From the NCBI GenBank assembly GCA_944390795.1, contig CALXRI010000018.1:1-58392 (forward strand): a stretch of 58,392 nucleotides of DNA. The letters run 5' to 3'. Positions 1-58,392 of the stretch are shown here, piece by piece. Made by a program: the position numbers and the translations under genes. How positions within the stretch are numbered: the first letter of the stretch is position 1; each line of letters opens with the position of its first letter. The notes beneath the pieces were generated by a model. That model searched no databases and was not told the origin of the DNA. It saw nothing but the letters and a program-made list of their open reading frames with translations. This DNA is from an uncultured Victivallales bacterium. GTDB lineage: Bacteria > Verrucomicrobiota > Lentisphaeria > Victivallales > UBA1829.

Positions 1-90
1 TGGCGGAGAGAGGGGGATTCGAACCCCCGAACGGGTTGCCCCGTTAACGGTTTTCGAGACCGCCGCCTTCGGCCACTCAGCCATCTCTCC
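1..90 (-). tRNA. tRNA-Ser (anticodon CGA)
   Basis: Read on the minus strand, the segment folds as a class II tRNA. The 5' acceptor strand GGAGAGA pairs with TCTCTCC, followed by a G discriminator and an encoded CCA at the window edge. The anticodon loop CTCGAAA places CGA at positions 34-36, so it reads UCG. A long variable arm and the T-loop TTCGAAT are visible, as expected for tRNA-Ser. The 3' end coincides with base 1, so nothing can be said about what lies downstream. Confidence 0.96.
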
Positions 91-4680: not shown

Positions 4681-6024
4681 TCACTTCTTCGCGGCTTTCT
4701 TTCCGGCGGACTTCTTTTCCGGCTTTTTTTCCACACAGGGCTCCTTTTCCCCCGCGGACCCTGCCGGTTTTTTCCTTTCCGCCTTTTTTCCGGCCTCGTC
4801 ATGCCCGCAGCAGCAGTCGCATTCACACTCGTTCCTGGAGTATTTTCCGGCTTCGTTCAGGAGCTCCTCGATTTTGTCGACTCTTTCCCACGGGAAACCG
4901 TCCCGGCCGAAATGACCGTAGGAGGCCGTGTCGCGATAAGACCATGTATCGGGATTCTTGAGTCCGAGAGTCTTGATGATGCCGACCGGCGTCATGTCGA
5001 AGACGGCGCGGACAATCTTCTCCAGAATCGCATCGTCATCAAAGATGCCGGTGCCGTAGGTGTCCACATTGATGGAAAGCGGCCGGGCGACGCCGATCGC
5101 ATAGGCCAGCTGGATCTCGCATTTGTCGGCGAGTCCGGAGGCAACGATGTTCTTGGCGATGTAGCGCCCCATGTAGGCGGCGGAACGGTCGACCTTGGAG
5201 GGATCCTTGCCGGAAAACGCGCCGCCGCCGTGGGAACCGACGCCTCCGTAGGTGTCCACAATGATCTTCCGTCCTGTGAGCCCTGTGTCGCCGTTCGGCC
5301 CGCCGACGACGAAACGGCCGGTCGGGTTGATGTGATACTGGACTTTCCCCTTGAGGTATTTCGCGGGGATGACCTTTTTCACGACCTCCTTCACAAGCTT
5401 TTCCAGCTCTTCGCGCTTCATGTCCGGCGTATGCTGATGGGAAACGACGACCGCCTCGACGGAAACGGGTTTTCCGTCAACATAGCGCATCGAAACCTGA
5501 CTCTTGGAGTCGGGACGCAGAAAAGCGTATTTCTTCGGCTGGGTCTTGCGGAGGCGGGCGAGCTCCTGCACGATTTTGTGGGCGTAGACAATGGTCGCGG
5601 GCATGAGCTCCTTCGTTTCGTTGCTGGCGTAGCCGAACATCATGCCCTGGTCGCCGGCGCCCTGCTCCTTGTGAAGCCCCTCGCCGACGGATACGCCCTG
5701 CGAAATGTCGGGCGACTGGGTGTGCACGCAGACGAACACCTTGCAGTCGTCGGCGGAAAAACCGATGTTTCTGTCATTGTAGCCGATGTCCCGGACAACG
5801 CCGCGGGCGAGCTCCTCCCAGTTGATTTTCGCCTTGGTGGTGATTTCGCCGGAAATCACGATAAGGTCGGTCGTGCAGAGCGTTTCGCAGGCGACGCGGC
5901 TTTCGGGATCCTGTTTCAGACAGGCATCCAGCACGGCGTCGGAAATCTGGTCGCAGACCTTGTCGGGATGCCCTTCCGAAACGGACTCGGAGGTGAAGAT
6001 GTGATCGGCGTAAATCTTGCTCAT
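4681..6024 (-). CDS. metK: S-adenosylmethionine synthetase with Cys/Lys-rich C-terminal tail
   Basis: Methionine adenosyltransferase, which makes SAM from methionine and ATP. Visible motifs are HPDK (19-22), GAGDQG (123-128) and SGKDPSK (271-277), the ATP, metal and phosphate-binding segments. At 447 residues it exceeds the usual length of about 385. The extra tail after residue 398 begins with a cysteine cluster (Cys400, 402, 404, 405, 406, then His408) and continues as a Lys/Ala/Glu-rich segment to the end. The enzyme core is complete, so the tail is an addition. It is the first gene of the SAM-cycle operon; AAGGAA precedes the ATG. Confidence 0.97.
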
Positions 6025-49522: not shown

Positions 49523-50511
49523 TGCACACCTCCCGTCGTGATTTTCATGAAGAGCTCCTCCAGCCCGAGTTCCTGTTTGCGGAATCCGATCACGGGAAGA
49601 TCCGCGGCGAAAAGGGTTCCGACGACACGTGAAATATCGCGGTCGCTTCCGGCGATCACGGCCTCAATGCGGCGTCCGTTTTCATCCAGGCGCGCCTGCG
49701 AAACGGCGGGATGCTCCAGCAGTTTCAAGCGCGCCTTTTCGGTGTCCTCCAGAAGTTCCAGGATTACGGTCGTTCCGGACGGCTGTGCCGGAGAAGCGCC
49801 GGAAGTTCCTTCGCATGGTGCCGCACCCGTGCGGGTCTGCGCGTCATGCAGGAGCTCGTCGAGCGTGCCCGCGGAGAGGAGGCGGCCCTTTTCGATGATG
49901 ACCGCGCCGTCGCAGATGTCCTGCAGTTCGGAAAGGATGTGGCTGCTGAGCAGAATCGCCTTGCCCTGCTGCGCAAGGATTTTCAGGAGCGCGCGCAGTT
50001 CCAGACGCGCGCGGGGATCCAGTCCCGCCGCCGGTTCATCCATGAGCAGGACGGGCGGATTGTGAACCAGTGCCCGCGCAAGGCTGACGCGCTGTTTCAT
50101 TCCCTTGGAGAGCGCGGCAAGGTATTTCCGGCGGATATCGCCGAGATTCGTGAACTCCTCAATTTCGGCAAGCACCTTTTTCCGCCCGGCGCCTTTGAGA
50201 CCGAACGCGCGGGCGAAGAAGTCCAGATACTCCCACACCTCGATGTCGCGGTATTCCGGCAGGGAGTCCGGCATGTAGCCGATCAGACGCCGCACCTTGT
50301 CCGGATCGCTGACCACGGAAACGCCGTCATAGAAAACGTCGCCGCTCTCCGGCTGGTCCAGCGTCGCCATGATTTTGATCGTCGTGGTCTTCCCCGCGCC
50401 GTTGGGGCCGATGAAGCCGAAAATGTTGCCCGAACCGAAGCGGAAGGAGATATCGTCCACCGCGCGGGTCGCGCCGAAGGTTCTGACAAGGTTGCGGATT
50501 TCAATCTGCAT
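49519..50511 (-). CDS. ABC transporter ATP-binding protein
   Basis: A 330-residue ATPase of the ABC-2 or GldA/CcmA type. Walker A is GPNGAGKTT (35-43), the signature LSKGMKQR (134-141), Walker B VLLMDEP (154-160), and the switch histidine is in LLSSHILSEL. The C-terminal extension after residue 215 is a GldA-like regulatory domain. It sits between the 600-aa membrane protein and the two permeases and overlaps both neighbours. Confidence 0.95.
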   Translation of the reverse strand: MQIEIRNLVRTFGATRAVDDISFRFGSGNIFGFIGPNGAGKTTTIKIMATLDQPESGDVFYDGVSVVSDPDKVRRLIGYMPDSLPEYRDIEVWEYLDFFARAFGLKGAGRKKVLAEIEEFTNLGDIRRKYLAALSKGMKQRVSLARALVHNPPVLLMDEPAAGLDPRARLELRALLKILAQQGKAILLSSHILSELQDICDGAVIIEKGRLLSAGTLDELLHDAQTRTGAAPCEGTSGASPAQPSGTTVILELLEDTEKARLKLLEHPAVSQARLDENGRRIEAVIAGSDRDISRVVGTLFAADLPVIGFRKQELGLEELFMKITTGGVQ

Positions 50512-52303
50512 GGTTTTCTTCTCCGGAGTTGTATTTGCCCAGAATCAGCTGACGGCATGTAAACGCGTCGGGAATCACGCCCGGCGTGTAAAAGAGCGGG
50601 GTGTCGGAAAGCGCCGCATAGTGTCCGCGCGGCAGCGTGCGCGCGAGAGTCTTCAATGCGGAGACTCCGCCGTCCGGGTCGGAAAAAGCGGCTTTGGGAA
50701 ACTCCCCTGCAGGCGCGAAACGGAGTTCCCCGGTTTTGTCCGCGCGCCCCGCCTGTTCCAGTTCCGCCCGCGCCCCCGCCGCAACGGGAGCTCCGGAAAC
50801 GTGGAGCCGTCCGTCAGCATCGACCAGCGCAAGGGCGGAAAGATTTCCGGAGAGACCGTTGACCACGCTCAGAATTCCGTCCGCATTCCGGATGACGCGC
50901 AGCCGCTCCTTCCGGGGTTCGGCACGGCTGACAGCATAGATCAGCGGCACGCGCGGCTGAACCAGCGAAGGCGAATAGCGCTGCCCTTCGTTCAGATTAA
51001 GCGTGCACTCTCCCATTCCCCGGGGAAACGCAAGACAGTCTCCGGCGCTGAAGCGCAGACCGTCTTTCGGACGCATCGGCGCGTAAAGGACATTCCATGC
51101 CGTTGTCGCGGCAATGCCGCGCTCCTGATCGAGAAAGGTCACGCCGAAACTCTTTCCGCGCGAATGCCACCCTTCGTGAAAGGTGATGTACAGGATCACG
51201 AAAAGACAGAATGACAGACTGAGCGCCGGCGTCGTCACCAGAATCCAAGGCTCCCGGTTCCTGCGCCGGAGCACGAAATAGTTGACCGGTCCGATCAGGA
51301 TGACAAACGCCAGCATCACCCAGAGCAGAACGGGCAGCGGCACATTCTCCACTTCCGGCATCAGAAGATTTTCATAATGGTTTGACGCCAGTTCCCGCGG
51401 TGAAACCGGCTTTACGGCGAGCAGGGATTTGATGAATGCGTGCGAGGGACTGAATGCCTCCTTCACTCTCTTTTCCTCCGTGGGGGAAAAGGAAGGTTTT
51501 CGTTTCCCTTTCCCTTCCTCCCTCTTTTCCAGCGCCCGGATGGCGCGGGCGGCATCCAGTTCCTTTTCCGGCGGAATCGGGCGGCAGATGATTTCCTTTC
51601 CCCATCCGCAGGATTGGACCAGACAGGAATTTTCCGGCTCGGGAACTCCTTCCGGCCACGGGTCCGACGGGGCGACGTAACGCACCAGAACGCCGCCGAG
51701 CATCATCCAGTTCCGGATCGCGTTTTCTGCTCCGGCGGAAAGTCTGTCCCGCGAGGAGAGGAAAATCATGCCGCACGCGCTGTAATCGCGCAGTTCCGTT
51801 CCCCATTGCGCCAGAGAAACCGTCGGAACGACCGGATGCGGATTTCCCCCTAAAAGTCCGAGTTTCCGATAATCCTCCAGCGGCAGAGCCGGAGATGTCA
51901 GTGCAATTTTCCCCCATACAGCCGACGGGAAAATCAGGGAGGGGCTTTCCACACGTTTCCCATCCACGGCAATGGAAAGTTTCTGATTTCCATAAGATCT
52001 CGGAAGGGGATAAAAAAGCGTCACATTCCTGACTGTATGCGGCGGCAGAAGAAAACTCCGCTCCACGGAGAGAGTTTCGCGATTCCAGGATTCAACCCTC
52101 AGGCTCATCCATACTTCCGCCTTGCGACTTCCCCGGTTCTCGACACGGAATGTTCCGGAAGAACAGGAATCCAGCGTCCGACAGGAAAGCATTCCCGGAA
52201 CGGACTCAAAATGAACGGGGGATTCTCCGTCTTCCGCAAAAAGCCCCGATATTCCCGGCAGACAGAGGAAGATCAGACAAAACCGGAACCAATGCAGGGT
52301 CAT
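50501..52303 (-). CDS. Signal-peptide membrane protein with large periplasmic part
   Basis: A 600-residue protein. A signal peptide (residues about 4-23, ending near FAEDG) precedes a beta-rich periplasmic region. Two membrane helices lie around residues 325-385 (VLLWVMLAFVILIGPV and the SLSFCLFVILY segment), with a further beta domain after them. The FVxLIGPVNYFVLRRRNR segment is seen in several Planctomycete membrane proteins next to MoxR and ABC genes, but no function is established. It overlaps the moxR stop (ATGA) and the ATPase gene. Confidence 0.77.
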   Translation of the reverse strand: MTLHWFRFCLIFLCLPGISGLFAEDGESPVHFESVPGMLSCRTLDSCSSGTFRVENRGSRKAEVWMSLRVESWNRETLSVERSFLLPPHTVRNVTLFYPLPRSYGNQKLSIAVDGKRVESPSLIFPSAVWGKIALTSPALPLEDYRKLGLLGGNPHPVVPTVSLAQWGTELRDYSACGMIFLSSRDRLSAGAENAIRNWMMLGGVLVRYVAPSDPWPEGVPEPENSCLVQSCGWGKEIICRPIPPEKELDAARAIRALEKREEGKGKRKPSFSPTEEKRVKEAFSPSHAFIKSLLAVKPVSPRELASNHYENLLMPEVENVPLPVLLWVMLAFVILIGPVNYFVLRRRNREPWILVTTPALSLSFCLFVILYITFHEGWHSRGKSFGVTFLDQERGIAATTAWNVLYAPMRPKDGLRFSAGDCLAFPRGMGECTLNLNEGQRYSPSLVQPRVPLIYAVSRAEPRKERLRVIRNADGILSVVNGLSGNLSALALVDADGRLHVSGAPVAAGARAELEQAGRADKTGELRFAPAGEFPKAAFSDPDGGVSALKTLARTLPRGHYAALSDTPLFYTPGVIPDAFTCRQLILGKYNSGEENHAD

Positions 52304-53358
52304 TTTCCACCCTCCGGTTCTTCGACACGGACATCGGAACTCCATGCAATCCCGGCGGGATCCACCTTTTCCAGCAGGAGATCAATCAGATCAAACGGCG
52401 TGACTTTCTCCAGACGCGCCTGATAATTGAGGATCAGCCGGTGGTTGAGAACGGCTGGCGCAACGCTCTTCACATCCTCGAACCCGACGGTGGGCCGTCC
52501 GGCGAGCAGCGCCGCGGCCCGGGCGGACTCCGCAAGCGCAATCGCCGCACGCGGAGAGGCGCCGAACGCCGTGAAGCGTTTGATCTCCGGCAGCGCGGCG
52601 GGATCGGAGGGGTGCCCGGCGGCGACCAGACGCGCCATGTAATTCGCCACGGGACCACTGAGGTAAATGCGGTCCATCACGTCGAAAAGGCTCCTGAGCT
52701 CCGCCTTTCCGATCGACCACTCCGGCGCGGGCGGCTCCCCGCGGCGGCGTTCGGAGATGATCCGTGTGAGCGTGCCGGCATCCACGCCCGGAACCGCGAT
52801 TTTGAAAAGGAAGCGGTCGAGCTGCGCCTCGGGAATCGGATAGGTGCCCTCCAGCTCGATCGGATTCTGGGAGGCAAGCACGAAAAAGGGATCCGGAAGC
52901 ATCCGCGTCTCGCCGAGCAGCGTCACGGAACGCTCCTGCATCGCCTCAAGCATCGCCGACTGTGTCTTCGGGGACGCGCGGTTGATCTCGTCGGCAAGCA
53001 CGATATTCGAGAAAATCGCGCCCGGCTGGAAGGTCATGCGACGCGTGCCGTCCGGCTCGGTCCGGAGAATGCTGCACCCGAGGATGTCGCCCGGAAGCAG
53101 GTCGGGCGTGAACTGGATCCGCTTGAAATCCAGCGAAAGAAGCGCGCCGAGCGCCTTGACCAGCGCGGTCTTGCCGACTCCCGGAAGCCCTTCGAGCAGA
53201 ATGTGCCCCCGGCTCAGAATCCCGATCAGGAGCAGGCGGTGCACCTCGTGATGTCCCAGCAGGATGCGGTCCAGTTCGGACAGAATCCTGTTTGCGCACG
53301 CCTGCGCCTCTGCCAGAATCTCCGGCGCGACCAATGATGCTTCGCTTTCCTTTTCCAT
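52300..53358 (-). CDS. MoxR-family AAA+ ATPase
   Basis: A 352-residue MoxR ATPase. The Walker A is GLPGVGKT (57-64), Walker B LADEINRASPKTQ, sensor ASQNPIELEGTYPIPEAQLDRF, and arginine finger follow in order. MoxR proteins act as chaperones or maturation ATPases for VWA-domain partners, consistent with two VWA proteins and DUF58 encoded in the same operon. The start at 53358 fits the family; a longer frame to 53493 runs into the upstream gene. Confidence 0.95.
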   Translation of the reverse strand: MEKESEASLVAPEILAEAQACANRILSELDRILLGHHEVHRLLLIGILSRGHILLEGLPGVGKTALVKALGALLSLDFKRIQFTPDLLPGDILGCSILRTEPDGTRRMTFQPGAIFSNIVLADEINRASPKTQSAMLEAMQERSVTLLGETRMLPDPFFVLASQNPIELEGTYPIPEAQLDRFLFKIAVPGVDAGTLTRIISERRRGEPPAPEWSIGKAELRSLFDVMDRIYLSGPVANYMARLVAAGHPSDPAALPEIKRFTAFGASPRAAIALAESARAAALLAGRPTVGFEDVKSVAPAVLNHRLILNYQARLEKVTPFDLIDLLLEKVDPAGIAWSSDVRVEEPEGGK

Positions 53359-53374
53359 GACAGGACAAATCTCC

Positions 53375-54856
53375 TTATTGTTTCGTTTTCCTGAAATACT
53401 GTTCGACCGTCGCACGATGCTCGGGATGGATCCGGATTTTCCGCTGTTCCACCACGGCTTCGCCGCCGCGCAGGGACCCCGCCTGTGCGGCACGCGCCTC
53501 TTTTTCGGGATTTTCCGGCGCGCCGGTCCCGGAAACGATCAGATTCGTCCGCTCCGGGTCGGGCATATTGGATTCCAGCGTGAAATCCCGATGTTTTCCG
53601 GTAAAGGCGGGCGTGTTTCCCGTGTGATTCAAAGGAGCGCTCCCCGGCCCGCGCGACACGCCGCCTGTTCCGGCTCCCGCCCCCTGCCCTGCTCCGGCAA
53701 GCAGAAGAAGGAGCTCCTCGGACTGGGGAAGATTCTCATTGAGCCACTGCGCGAGATCCATGTCCTCCTCACTCATGCATGCGCCGGAACACGCGCCATT
53801 CTCCCCCGAACACATTCCGGGATTCCGGCATTTGCTGCCGGTCAGCTTTGCCAGCATGAGTTTCGCCAGACGCTCCATCTGTTCGCGGCTGCAGTTTTCG
53901 AGCGTTTCCGCAAGTTTGCGCATCGTCTCGGGTGTGAGTTTCCCCGGCTCTATGCCGGCCTCCCTGAGCGCTTTCAGAAGTGCGGGATTGTCCGCGGCGA
54001 TCTGGCGGATCGCCTCGGCAAGCTCCGAAGAGACTTCCGGCGTGATCCGTTCGCCGGGAAGCTGAGATAGAGCTTCAAGCGCATGGGAAAGCATGTCCGC
54101 AAGTTCTCGTGTGCGTTTCGCCTGCTGCGCCGCCTCCTCGCCGACGCCGTCCGCGCGGCGGTTCAGTTCTTCCAGCAGACTGTAAGTGGCTCCCGCATCG
54201 CCCGCGTCGTTTTTCTCGGAAACCTCCTTGAGAATCTTTTTCATTTCGGAAGCTTCCGGCGCGGACAGAAGTTTTTCTTCCTCCAACACACGGAGTTTCT
54301 CTTCCAGAATAGCGCTCTCCTCGGTCACATCCAGACGGCGCGGCATGTCCGGTGACTCCATTCCGTGCGATATGGGGCAGATCAGAGCTCCCAATAGAAA
54401 ACACCCTCCGAGGAGTGCCGGAATGCAGAAGCGCGAAGGCTTCACAGAAACACGGGGCACGTCCGGCACGGCGATCCGAGCGCGCCAGAGACCGGGATCC
54501 ACTTCAAGCGATGCGGAAAGCAGTCCGCCGGAACGGTCCAGATAAACCAGAAGTTTCTCATGGTCCGGCAGAATTTTCCGGACGGACAACAGCGTCAGCA
54601 TTCCGGCACAGAGGATCGAAAGCAGAAGAAGGAGAAGCGAGAAATGCATTGGCCAGCGAGGCAAAAGGAAACGACCGCCGAGAATCAGAAGCCCGCAGAC
54701 AAAAAGCGCAAAGGTCAGAAAAAAGGGGAATTCCTTCCGGAACAGTGCAACAGCGATCCGCATACGCAGAATCCGCGCGGAACGCCATGCTTCTTCAAGC
54801 GCATTCCTTCCGCCGGAACCATATCCCGCTCCCGGTCTCTCTTTGCCCATCTGCAC
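53375..54856 (-). CDS. Membrane-anchored helical protein, first gene of the MoxR operon
   Basis: A 493-residue protein with three hydrophobic segments (about residues 44-62, 69-88 and 145-162). A long charged helical region follows, then a Cys-containing and Gly-rich stretch around 345-420 (CSGENGACSGACMS and GAGQGAGAGTGGVSRG). No family is certain, though it resembles DUF4175-type proteins next to MoxR genes. It is the first gene after the repeat cluster. A GTG start (54856) and an ATG at 54850 are both possible; AGGAG at about 5 bp favours the GTG. A candidate TTGAAA -35 lies about 85 bp upstream. Confidence 0.7.
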   Translation of the reverse strand: MQMGKERPGAGYGSGGRNALEEAWRSARILRMRIAVALFRKEFPFFLTFALFVCGLLILGGRFLLPRWPMHFSLLLLLLSILCAGMLTLLSVRKILPDHEKLLVYLDRSGGLLSASLEVDPGLWRARIAVPDVPRVSVKPSRFCIPALLGGCFLLGALICPISHGMESPDMPRRLDVTEESAILEEKLRVLEEEKLLSAPEASEMKKILKEVSEKNDAGDAGATYSLLEELNRRADGVGEEAAQQAKRTRELADMLSHALEALSQLPGERITPEVSSELAEAIRQIAADNPALLKALREAGIEPGKLTPETMRKLAETLENCSREQMERLAKLMLAKLTGSKCRNPGMCSGENGACSGACMSEEDMDLAQWLNENLPQSEELLLLLAGAGQGAGAGTGGVSRGPGSAPLNHTGNTPAFTGKHRDFTLESNMPDPERTNLIVSGTGAPENPEKEARAAQAGSLRGGEAVVEQRKIRIHPEHRATVEQYFRKTKQ

Positions 54857-54967
54857 GGTGTCTCCTGCTGGAAATTCCGTATTTTTTCACCGAAAACATC
54901 CCGTCAGGATACGATTACCATGTCCGTACTGTTTTTCAAGCGGAATCCCGAAAATATCGGAGAAATA

Positions 54968-55146
54968 CGGAAGAATGCGCATGCATTCTTCTCGGGGTCA
55001 AGGGCCATTTGGCCCTTGGCGAGGTCCAGCGGCGAAACGCTGGGCGTGCGGAGCACGAAATCCCCCGCCCGGAGCGGTTCAATCCGCTCAGTGACGAGAA
55101 CTTTTCGTTAAGAAAAGTTCGAGAGCTCCGGGCGTCCCCATCAAGA
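54968..55146 (+). repeat. Structured repeat, direct copy 1 (179 bp)
   Basis: First of two nearly identical tandem units of period 179 bp, beginning CGGAAGAATGC and ending GTCCCCATCAAGA. Inside are successive hairpins: AAGAATGC/GCATTCTT, CAAGGGCC/GGCCCTTG (loop ATTT), CCAGCG/CGCTGG, CGTGC-GGA-GCACG, GAGCGG/CCGCTC and GAACTTTTC/GAAAAGTTC. The unit length is not a multiple of three, so the frames change between copies and it is unlikely to be protein-coding. Confidence 0.93.
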
Positions 55147-55325
55147 CGGAAGAATGCGCATGCATTCTTCTCGGGGTCAAGGGCCTTCCGGCCCTTGGCG
55201 TGATCCAGCGGCGAAACGCTGGGCGTGCGGAGCACGAAATCCCCCGCCCGGAGCGGTTCAATCCGCTCAGTGACGAGAACTTTTCGTTAAGAAAAGTTCG
55301 AGAGCTCCGGGCGTCCCCATCAAGA
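55147..55325 (+). repeat. Structured repeat, direct copy 2 (179 bp)
   Basis: Second tandem unit, differing from copy 1 only at a few positions: the second hairpin's loop is TTCC instead of ATTT, and the following segment reads GTGATCC instead of GAGGTCC. All other stems are identical. Confidence 0.93.
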
Positions 55326-55342
55326 CGGAAGAATGCGCATGC
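55326..55342 (+). repeat. Truncated third direct copy
   Basis: Only the first 17 bases of the unit (CGGAAGAATGCGCATGC) remain before the sequence changes to a T-rich stretch leading to the inverted copy. Confidence 0.85.
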
Positions 55343-55376
55343 TTTTTTCGTCTCTTTAATACTCATTAATCAATTA

Positions 55377-55567
55377 CGAGAGCTCCGGGCATTTCCCCAA
55401 GGTGATACACTGTACCGGCGGCTCTCGAAGCTTCGCTTCTCGTCCTTGAGCGGATGGAACCGCCGCCGGAAAGGAGATTTCGCCTCCGGCGACCAGCTTG
55501 CGCAGCTGGACCGCGCAAGGGTCAACGACCCTTGACCCCGAGAAAAATGCAACGCATTTTTCCGTCT
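55377..55567 (-). repeat. Diverged inverted copy of the structured repeat
   Basis: Read on the minus strand, this segment runs in the same order as the direct copies: AAAAATGC/GCATTTTT, then CTCGGGGTCAAGGG, CAAGGGTC/GACCCTTG, GGTCCAGC with CCAGCT/AGCTGG, a GGA-capped hairpin, CGAAATC, GGTTCCATCCGCTCA, and GAAGC/GCTTC. Paired positions change together relative to the direct copies in at least four stems. It ends next to the stop codon of the DUF2149 gene. Confidence 0.9.
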
Positions 55568-55568
55568 C

Positions 55569-55910
55569 TTAATGAGTCCCGTTTTCCGGAACGTAGATAA
55601 TCTCTCCCGTTTCCAGCCGGTAGGCAATTCCGACCCGCTCGCCTTTCCCCGAACCGGTCGTCTTCTCCGATTTGAAACGCGAAACCTTGTTATCCTTTTT
55701 GACGATGATCTCCATATCCGGCTTCCCCGCATTCTTGACATAAGTGACATCCTGCGAAGTCAGAAATTCAGTCATACGGCTCTGGATGACGAAAGCCACC
55801 ATCAGCGCAACGGCAAACACCATTGCCGCATCGAAAAGATTGATGAGTCCGGTCAGCGGATCACACTCCTCCTCCCCGTCAAACGGTTTATATCGCGGCA
55901 TTCTTCCCAT
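55569..55910 (-). CDS. DUF2149 protein (HmuV-like)
   Basis: A 113-residue protein. The N-terminal DPLTGLINLFDAAMVFAVAL segment is the DUF2149 signature and forms a single membrane helix; the C-terminus is a small periplasmic beta domain, like ExbD/TolR. In haem-uptake operons of Bacteroidetes the DUF2149 protein HmuV follows an ExbB-like HmuU. AAGGAG lies 7-8 bp before the ATG. The gene overlaps the ExbB-like gene by 23 bp, and the repeat cluster starts 2 bp after its stop. Confidence 0.8.
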   Translation of the reverse strand: MGRMPRYKPFDGEEECDPLTGLINLFDAAMVFAVALMVAFVIQSRMTEFLTSQDVTYVKNAGKPDMEIIVKKDNKVSRFKSEKTTGSGKGERVGIAYRLETGEIIYVPENGTH

Positions 55911-57539: not shown

Positions 57540-58392
57540 TTGTCCCCGAAAACTGGACAACTTGACTTGGTGTAAAATGCCCGTTAAATTGACCTGGAAA
57601 GGATGGGCATTTTATGAAAAAGTCGTATGACTCCAAATTCAAAGTCGTGGCATTGGACGCGCTGTGCGGGAATTGACCGTCGCCGAGATCGCGGGAAAAT
57701 ATCAGGTTCATCCGAATCAGGTCCAGCAGTGGAAAAAGAAACTCATGGAAGGAGCTTCCGGGATTTTCCAGTCCAAGGCAGAACGGAAAGAAAGCAAGCC
57801 GTATACCGAGGACGGTCTGATGAGGAAAATCGGACGCCTTGAAATCGAGAATGACTTTTTACGAAATGTGTCCTTGGCCTGCGGCTTGAATCCCGGAAAG
57901 CTCAAATAAGCGATCAGAATCCGGCTTTAAGCGTGAATCGTCAGTTGAAACTGCTTCGGGGCCCTCATTCAAGTTTTTATTACAAGCAGTGGATTCCTAT
58001 GGAAAGCCGGAGACTTTTAATTCGGATCAAGGGAGCCAGTTTACCTGCTCGGAGTTTGTAACGGAACTTCGGAACCATGGCATTCAGATCAGCATGGACG
58101 GACGGGGACGATGTCTGGATAATGCAAAGATGGAGCGTTTCTGGTGGGCATTGAAATATGAGGACATCAAAATAAAAGAGTACGTCAGCTTGCCGCAGCT
58201 CCGTTTCGGGGTGCAGCATTATGTGAATTTTTACAACTCCAGGCGGATTCATTCGGCTCTCCAATATCGGACGCCGGATGAAGTCTATTTCGGAACTTGT
58301 AATCGGCAAACAATGGAATAAGCATCGTTGCATAAATTTCTATATCAATAAATTCCAGATACCCAGCCCGACATTGAGAGGCGTTGCCAAGC
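57540..58392 (+). mobile_element. IS3-family insertion sequence, decayed, running off the right edge
   Basis: The left end near 57540 carries a TGTCCCCGAAAACTGGACA segment resembling IS3-family terminal repeats, followed by a broken OrfA and an internally deleted OrfB. No matching right end is visible before the window stops at 58392. Confidence 0.75.
57614..58321 (+). pseudogene. IS3-family transposase OrfA/OrfB remnants
   Basis: OrfA starts at 57614 (MKKSYDSKFKVVALDAL) but stops at 57676. The rest of OrfA continues in another frame from 57664 to 57909 (TVAEIAGKYQVHPNQVQQWK), so a single-base indel has broken it. The OrfB N-terminal sequence (NPALSVNRQLKLL) follows. The rve catalytic core then resumes at about 57989 with SDQGSQFT and CLDNAKMERFW, skipping the region with the first catalytic Asp. 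OrfB is therefore both out of frame and internally deleted. Confidence 0.85.

Follow-up and report, generated by a model that had tools for sequence, protein, structure and literature searches.

The repeat locus and its stems

The window analysed here, the whole stretch of 58,392 nucleotides, corresponds to contig 18 in the draft genome (G000, 3.44 Mb) of an uncultured Victivallales bacterium. It carries a hairpin-rich repeat in three copies, two direct units and one diverged inverted unit, whose stems differ by paired base changes. Are these changes the mark of a functional structured RNA or of a folded mobile repeat, the two readings offered by the original prediction? On one side the repeats adjoin a 493-aa ORF and a MoxR gene, and on the other a DUF2149 gene preceded by a MotA/ExbB gene; the genes on both sides lie on the minus strand. 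The MoxR side had been placed correctly, and the HmuTUV-like genes named as the other neighbour are replaced by the DUF2149 and MotA/ExbB genes, as no HmuTUV gene was found adjoining the repeats.

Direct unit 1 (54964–55142, plus strand, 179 bp), delimited by repeat search, consists of a core of about 97 nt in the order ACGG-H1-linker-H2-linker-H3-T-H4-AAATC, followed by a branched domain, P1(P2,P3). The core was placed at 54967–55063 by profile, and the unit scored 109 bits with the covariance model. All its stems are on the plus strand. H1 (AAGAATGC gcat GCATTCTT, 54971–54990), read from the sequence, has its arms at 54971–54978 and 54983–54990. H2 (CAAGGGCC attt GGCCCTTG, 54999–55018), H3 (CCAGCG gcgaaa CGCTGG, 55026–55043) and H4 (CGTGC gga GCACG, 55045–55057, followed by the conserved AAATC) were identified in the sequence and in the family alignment. 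P1 (GCCCGGAGC/GCTCCGGGC, 55067–55133), seen in the sequence and counted over the copies, encloses P2 and P3, the arms of P3 being GAACTTTTC (55098–55106) and GAAAAGTTC (55112–55120).

Direct unit 2 (55143–55321, plus strand), also of 179 bp and found by repeat search, is 97% identical to unit 1 and has its core at 55146–55242 (profile; 109.6 bits for the unit with the covariance model). The same search detected a partial third copy (55322–55349, plus strand), which consists of an H1-like hairpin only and belongs to the spacer between the inverted units. The diverged inverted unit (55415–55567, minus strand), recognised from inverted repeats, reads P1', then H4', H3', H2' and H1' towards 55567. 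Its P1' arms are CCGGCGGC (55415–55422) and GCCGCCGG (55462–55469), its core occupies 55473–55565 on the minus strand (profile; 77 bits for the unit), and its H1' arms are AAAAATGC (55543–55550) and GCATTTTT (55554–55561). Unit 2, the spacer and the inverted unit together form a composite of about 420 bp (55143–55570, no strand assigned), defined by blastn against the genome and by full-copy alignment. It is a near-palindrome with inverted arms of about 100–130 bp, and its DNA fold over 55143–55570 is far beyond chance (z = −12.3).

The predicted common order of stems in the two direct 179-bp units and the diverged inverted unit was borne out by the sequence and the repeat search. The paired changes in H1 (AAGAATGC/GCATTCTT against AAAAATGC/GCATTTTT), in H2 (CAAGGGCC/GGCCCTTG against CAAGGGTC/GACCCTTG) and in H3 (CCAGCG/CGCTGG against CCAGCT/AGCTGG) are present in the sequence, as are the other changes listed. 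To the stems already described, the branched P1/P2/P3 domain must be added, and with it a further covariation, in which GCCCGGAGC/GCTCCGGGC of the direct units is replaced as a block by CCGGCGGC/GCCGCCGG in the inverted unit.

Stem mismatches point to hairpins maintained as DNA

The covariation was checked in a large alignment of 145 distinct cores, made with a covariance model for which copies close to one another in length had been taken; a MAFFT alignment of all cores was set aside because it misplaced the variable loops. Of the 3,741 stem cells, 98.9% are paired, and H1 is paired in 98.6% across the family. Double changes occur in 22 of the 27 stem pairs and account for 442 cells, as compared with 120 in shuffles; one-sided changes are few, and sliding the pairing partner abolishes the signal. 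These pairing figures are biased upward, as the alignment was fitted to a given structure and the sequences are related. Despite this bias the signal is too strong for chance, and the predicted covariation holds.

A structure-led alignment can inflate the percentage of paired cells, but it is not expected to tilt the count towards A·C at the expense of G·U. The two kinds of mismatch were compared. Among the 3,741 stem cells, G·U mismatches (GT+TG) number 23 and A·C mismatches (AC+CA) 20. SRP RNA (RF00169) of the same order, represented by 26 distinct sequences and analysed with RNAalifold, was used as control in place of tRNA, which yielded only 7 sequences. Its stems covary like those of the repeat, but in them G·U far outnumbers A·C (122 against 3), which is not so in the repeat. 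The mismatch ratios of the two differ with a Fisher p of 2.6e-11, a value resting on 43 cells from copies linked by descent and exchange, and hence not fully independent. Mismatches in P1 are balanced as well (one G·U, one A·C); a second count gave 9 and 9 with a loose pattern that also catches unrelated matches. An RNA function on one strand would tolerate G·U but not A·C. As the two are about equally rare, the pairing is strictly Watson-Crick and strand-symmetric, which points to stem pairing kept at the DNA level, as in DNA hairpins.

Orthologous copies in G000 and in G002, a genome of the same genus, have stems diverged by 1.9%, linkers by 8.1% and loops by 10–38%; their flanks are mostly 1–10% diverged. 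Within one orthologous locus (L145 against L330), two stems have switched on both arms, CCGGCG/CGCCGG to CCAGCG/CGCTGG and CGTGC/GCACG to CGCGC/GCGCG. Paired switching of stems at one and the same site is thereby shown. The pattern is what would be expected of hairpin-templated repair, of exchange between copies and of selection for a DNA hairpin alike.

Spread and placement of the repeat family

A BLAST search of the repeat against G000 gave 95 places, with both strands counted since the inverted arms resemble each other. By profile, about 80 cores were found in the window and 36 further stretches of the genome, and the composite form recurs at about ten other places in G000. Within the same genus, G002 and G003 have 50–70 matches each and G001 five. 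In genus g10 of the same family, three genomes have 32–48 matches, and the copies examined there are mostly single cores without the P-domain. The covariance model matched 17 of 289 genomes sampled from the phylum, and all 17 belong to the same order; among the sampled genomes, the repeat family was found only in this one bacterial order. Many G000 contigs end in or near repeats, so that the copy counts are likely to be too low and some arrays may have been collapsed. Contigs ending inside or beside repeats are C8, C13, C21, C23, C27, C38, C40, C41, C43, C46, C57 and C61. No match to the repeat was present in the phage and plasmid collections searched. At the gathering score, no Rfam family was detected in the repeat region; a permissive scan returned two matches far below the cut-off, to a plant miRNA precursor model and to a piece of a lncRNA, which seem only to track the long palindrome.

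Cores occur singly, in inverted pairs, or as the composite of two inverted units. The modules recombine, and both orientations relative to genes are seen. The tandem number also varies, G002 having at least three direct units at the locus of the window. Copies are mostly intergenic, as judged from gene calls made with our own crude codon-usage script. The gene between two head-to-head copies (L113:5743–7455) was considered as a passenger transposase and rejected, its translation resembling, by eye, a host membrane protein.

Solo H1 hairpins with the full ACGG...CCGT palindrome were seen at L113 (near 4870–4900), and G003 has a related remnant where the L139 site lies (L423). We suggest that the solo H1 hairpin (ACGGAAGAATGC....GCATTCTTCCGT) is perhaps what remains of a composite that lost its interior. 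At L130:4960–5260, an A-type core (that of the composite family) is nested between two halves resembling degenerate MITE pieces. Another expansion of the module is found in G019 (L211:1495–1700), as tandem repeats of about 80 bp, each with the H2-H3-H4 hairpins.

A 150-bp IS200-type MITE carries the same hairpin module

The H2-H3-H4 module is also found inside a 150-bp element, family B, most copies of which are 97–100% identical. Its ends are sharp (CAAAAAAATTTAGGTTAATACC-hairpin ... AATACC-hairpin-GGTAATTTATT), and head-to-tail tandems occur. In G000 it is present at L117:4877–5026 and at about 27 places, often in tandem, and is polymorphic between G000 and G002. One site is empty in G002 (GCTTTTTTTATT/TTAAAAAAA), and there G000 carries the element, exactly 150 bp long, directly behind TTTATT. 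The left end gave 43 fuzzy matches, 18 of which lie directly after an exact TTTATT or TTCATT; the others are near variants or chance matches.

IS200/IS605 elements insert as single strands after a short target, without duplicating it. Matching ends were found in relatives at loci of Y1 (IS200-like) transposases. In G020, the gene encodes a PF01797 protein (E = 2.7e-33), and the locus has TTTATT as left flank, then a GGTTTAATACC-hairpin, and a right end of GATACCCCG..CGGGGTAGTTCATT. The left flank TTTATT differs from TTCATT at the right end, and therefore no target duplication is present. The Y1 locus of G047 has the end anatomy of family B (GATACCTCG..CGAGGTAGTTCATT), and that of G024 a similar, truncated one. 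Family B is thus an IS200/IS605-type MITE, with hairpins close to both ends, insertion on the 3' side of a short, fixed T-rich target without extra duplication, and ends that match those of a Y1-transposase element of the same bacterial family. It differs from such MITEs in carrying the internal H2-H3-H4 module in common with the REP-like family. In G039, from another family of the order, a 198-bp MITE combines IS200-like ends with the core.

In an array of G003, a chimera was observed in which the left end and core of family B continue into the P-domain of the composite. From the shared core and this chimera it follows that the composite and the MITE have a common history, though their ends differ. 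The window composite (family A) does not have the ends of family B or of the Y1 element; its cores begin with ACGG-H1 at the outer end, and no TTTATT target is present.

No intact Y1 element with family B ends was found in G000, where the only Y1 match is partial. Nor is any transposase gene in G000 flanked by the composite, which was counted against a mobile origin. A search beside Y1 genes with the core profile gave no full core and one partial match (L239). A RAYT gene in G012, considered as possibly flanked by the repeat, was found to have other ends. No clean empty site for the composite was obtained, the sites tried in G001 and G003 being degenerate, rearranged or filled. Composite sites are largely common to G000 and G002, and recent movement of the composite is therefore not seen.

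Comparison with REP and BIME repeats

The family resembles the REP, BIME and REPIN repeats (Di Nocera 2013, PMC3733652; Bertels and Rainey 2011, PMC3116915) in that short palindromes with compensated stems lie between genes in many copies, form inverted pairs and are specific to a lineage. It differs in unit length and complexity: REPs are 20–40 bp long with one stem, whereas the present repeat has four to seven stems in a unit of 97–179 nt. Two tagged groups of REPs, GTAG and CGTC, have been described, in the PVC group as well, and those with CGTC are without a dedicated transposase (PMC3733652). The window repeat shares this last property with CGTC REPs and, unlike RAYT-linked REPs, flanks no RAYT gene at the Y1 loci examined. 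The GTAG tag, which marks the foot of the palindrome in its group, is absent from the aligned copies, in which cores begin with ACGG and end with AAATC. Membership of the CGTC group, whose tag reads GACG on the other strand, was rejected, as a G directly precedes ACGG in only 28 of 90 copies. The repeat is probably a variant of the known REP/BIME-like repeats, with a tie to IS200-type MITEs. An open-access literature search found no report of such repeats in Victivallis or Lentisphaerae.

Origin of the repeats and alternative explanations

Taken together, the repeats of the window are probably one of many scattered loci of a mobile palindromic DNA repeat of this bacterial order, REP/BIME-like and related to IS200/IS605-type MITEs. 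The mobile-repeat half of the original prediction is supported by the presence of dozens of copies between genes, by the modular build of the inverted pairs and by a module in common with a clearly mobile IS200-type MITE. The hairpins would be extruded in single-stranded DNA during replication or transposition, and the MITE form, if not more, may have been moved by a Y1 transposase acting in trans. Spread of the composite could have followed that route or a similar one, or have come about through rearrangement of palindromes linked to replication. Hairpin-templated repair or exchange between copies would match the arms of the stems to each other, and the exposed loops would mutate fast. There is a small chance that the multi-hairpin module is passed between IS200-type MITEs and REP-like composites and kept as a single-stranded DNA structure for a purpose of its own, such as docking of a host or transposase protein. 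If so, whole sets of stems and a three-way junction would be conserved as DNA, not RNA.

Repeats of mobile origin might instead have been taken over by the host as putative 3' ends of transcripts, acting in termination or mRNA protection. Several copies do begin 4–12 nt past a stop codon, in the direction of the gene; in the window, the DUF2149 gene ends at 55569 and the core of the inverted unit begins 4 nt away, at 55565. A-type clusters lie between convergent or codirectional genes, with divergent pairs nearly avoided (1 of 15), and stems have diverged less than loops and linkers. An ordinary hairpin-T terminator is present in G000 and G002 at one site where G003 has an array. However, terminator-like sites in the repeat region are in no excess over shuffles (2 against a mean of 1.5), and selection against the disruption of genes would by itself leave the copies between genes, so that we regard such a use as unlikely. 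The other half of the original prediction, a functional structured non-coding or cis-regulatory RNA of about 180 nt in many copies, is disfavoured and appears very unlikely. It would account for the strong covariation with conserved linkers, the conserved single-stranded stretches of the branched domain, the RNA fold of a single unit (z = −6.3) and the retention of copies at orthologous sites. Against it stand the equal rarity of G·U and A·C, unlike in SRP RNA, the hypervariable loops, the recombining modules in both orientations to genes, the failure of any Rfam family to reach the cut-off, and a repeat region in which no promoter-like site was found. Least probable is a reading that leaves IS200 aside, in which the repeat would be the MITE of an unknown DDE transposon and have long terminal inverted repeats. 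The near-palindromic composite with its long inverted arms has the appearance of such an element, but target duplication is not seen, single cores also stand alone, and the core is common to an IS200-type MITE.

The covariation thus failed to discriminate between RNA and a DNA repeat because palindromic DNA can covary without RNA function. Palindromic mobile DNA yields the same covariation signal as RNA, and a functional RNA cannot be recognised from strong covariation alone, even where conserved linkers and a branched domain accompany it. Counting G·U against A·C mismatches tells the two apart and could serve for other RNA candidates found by covariation. In a poorly studied bacterial order, this repeat family joins REP-like repeats to IS200-type MITEs through a common hairpin module, and its MITE form is still polymorphic between species.

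Other features of the window

The MoxR protein of the window is 77% identical to MoxR of an uncultured Victivallis. Two ORFs of the MoxR cluster, at 53375–54856 (493 aa) and 50501–52345 (614 aa), both on the minus strand, have no Pfam match. IS3-type transposase pieces (HTH and integrase core) lie at the right end of the window (57664–58321, plus strand), and at its left end Rfam identified a tRNA gene (4–90, minus strand).
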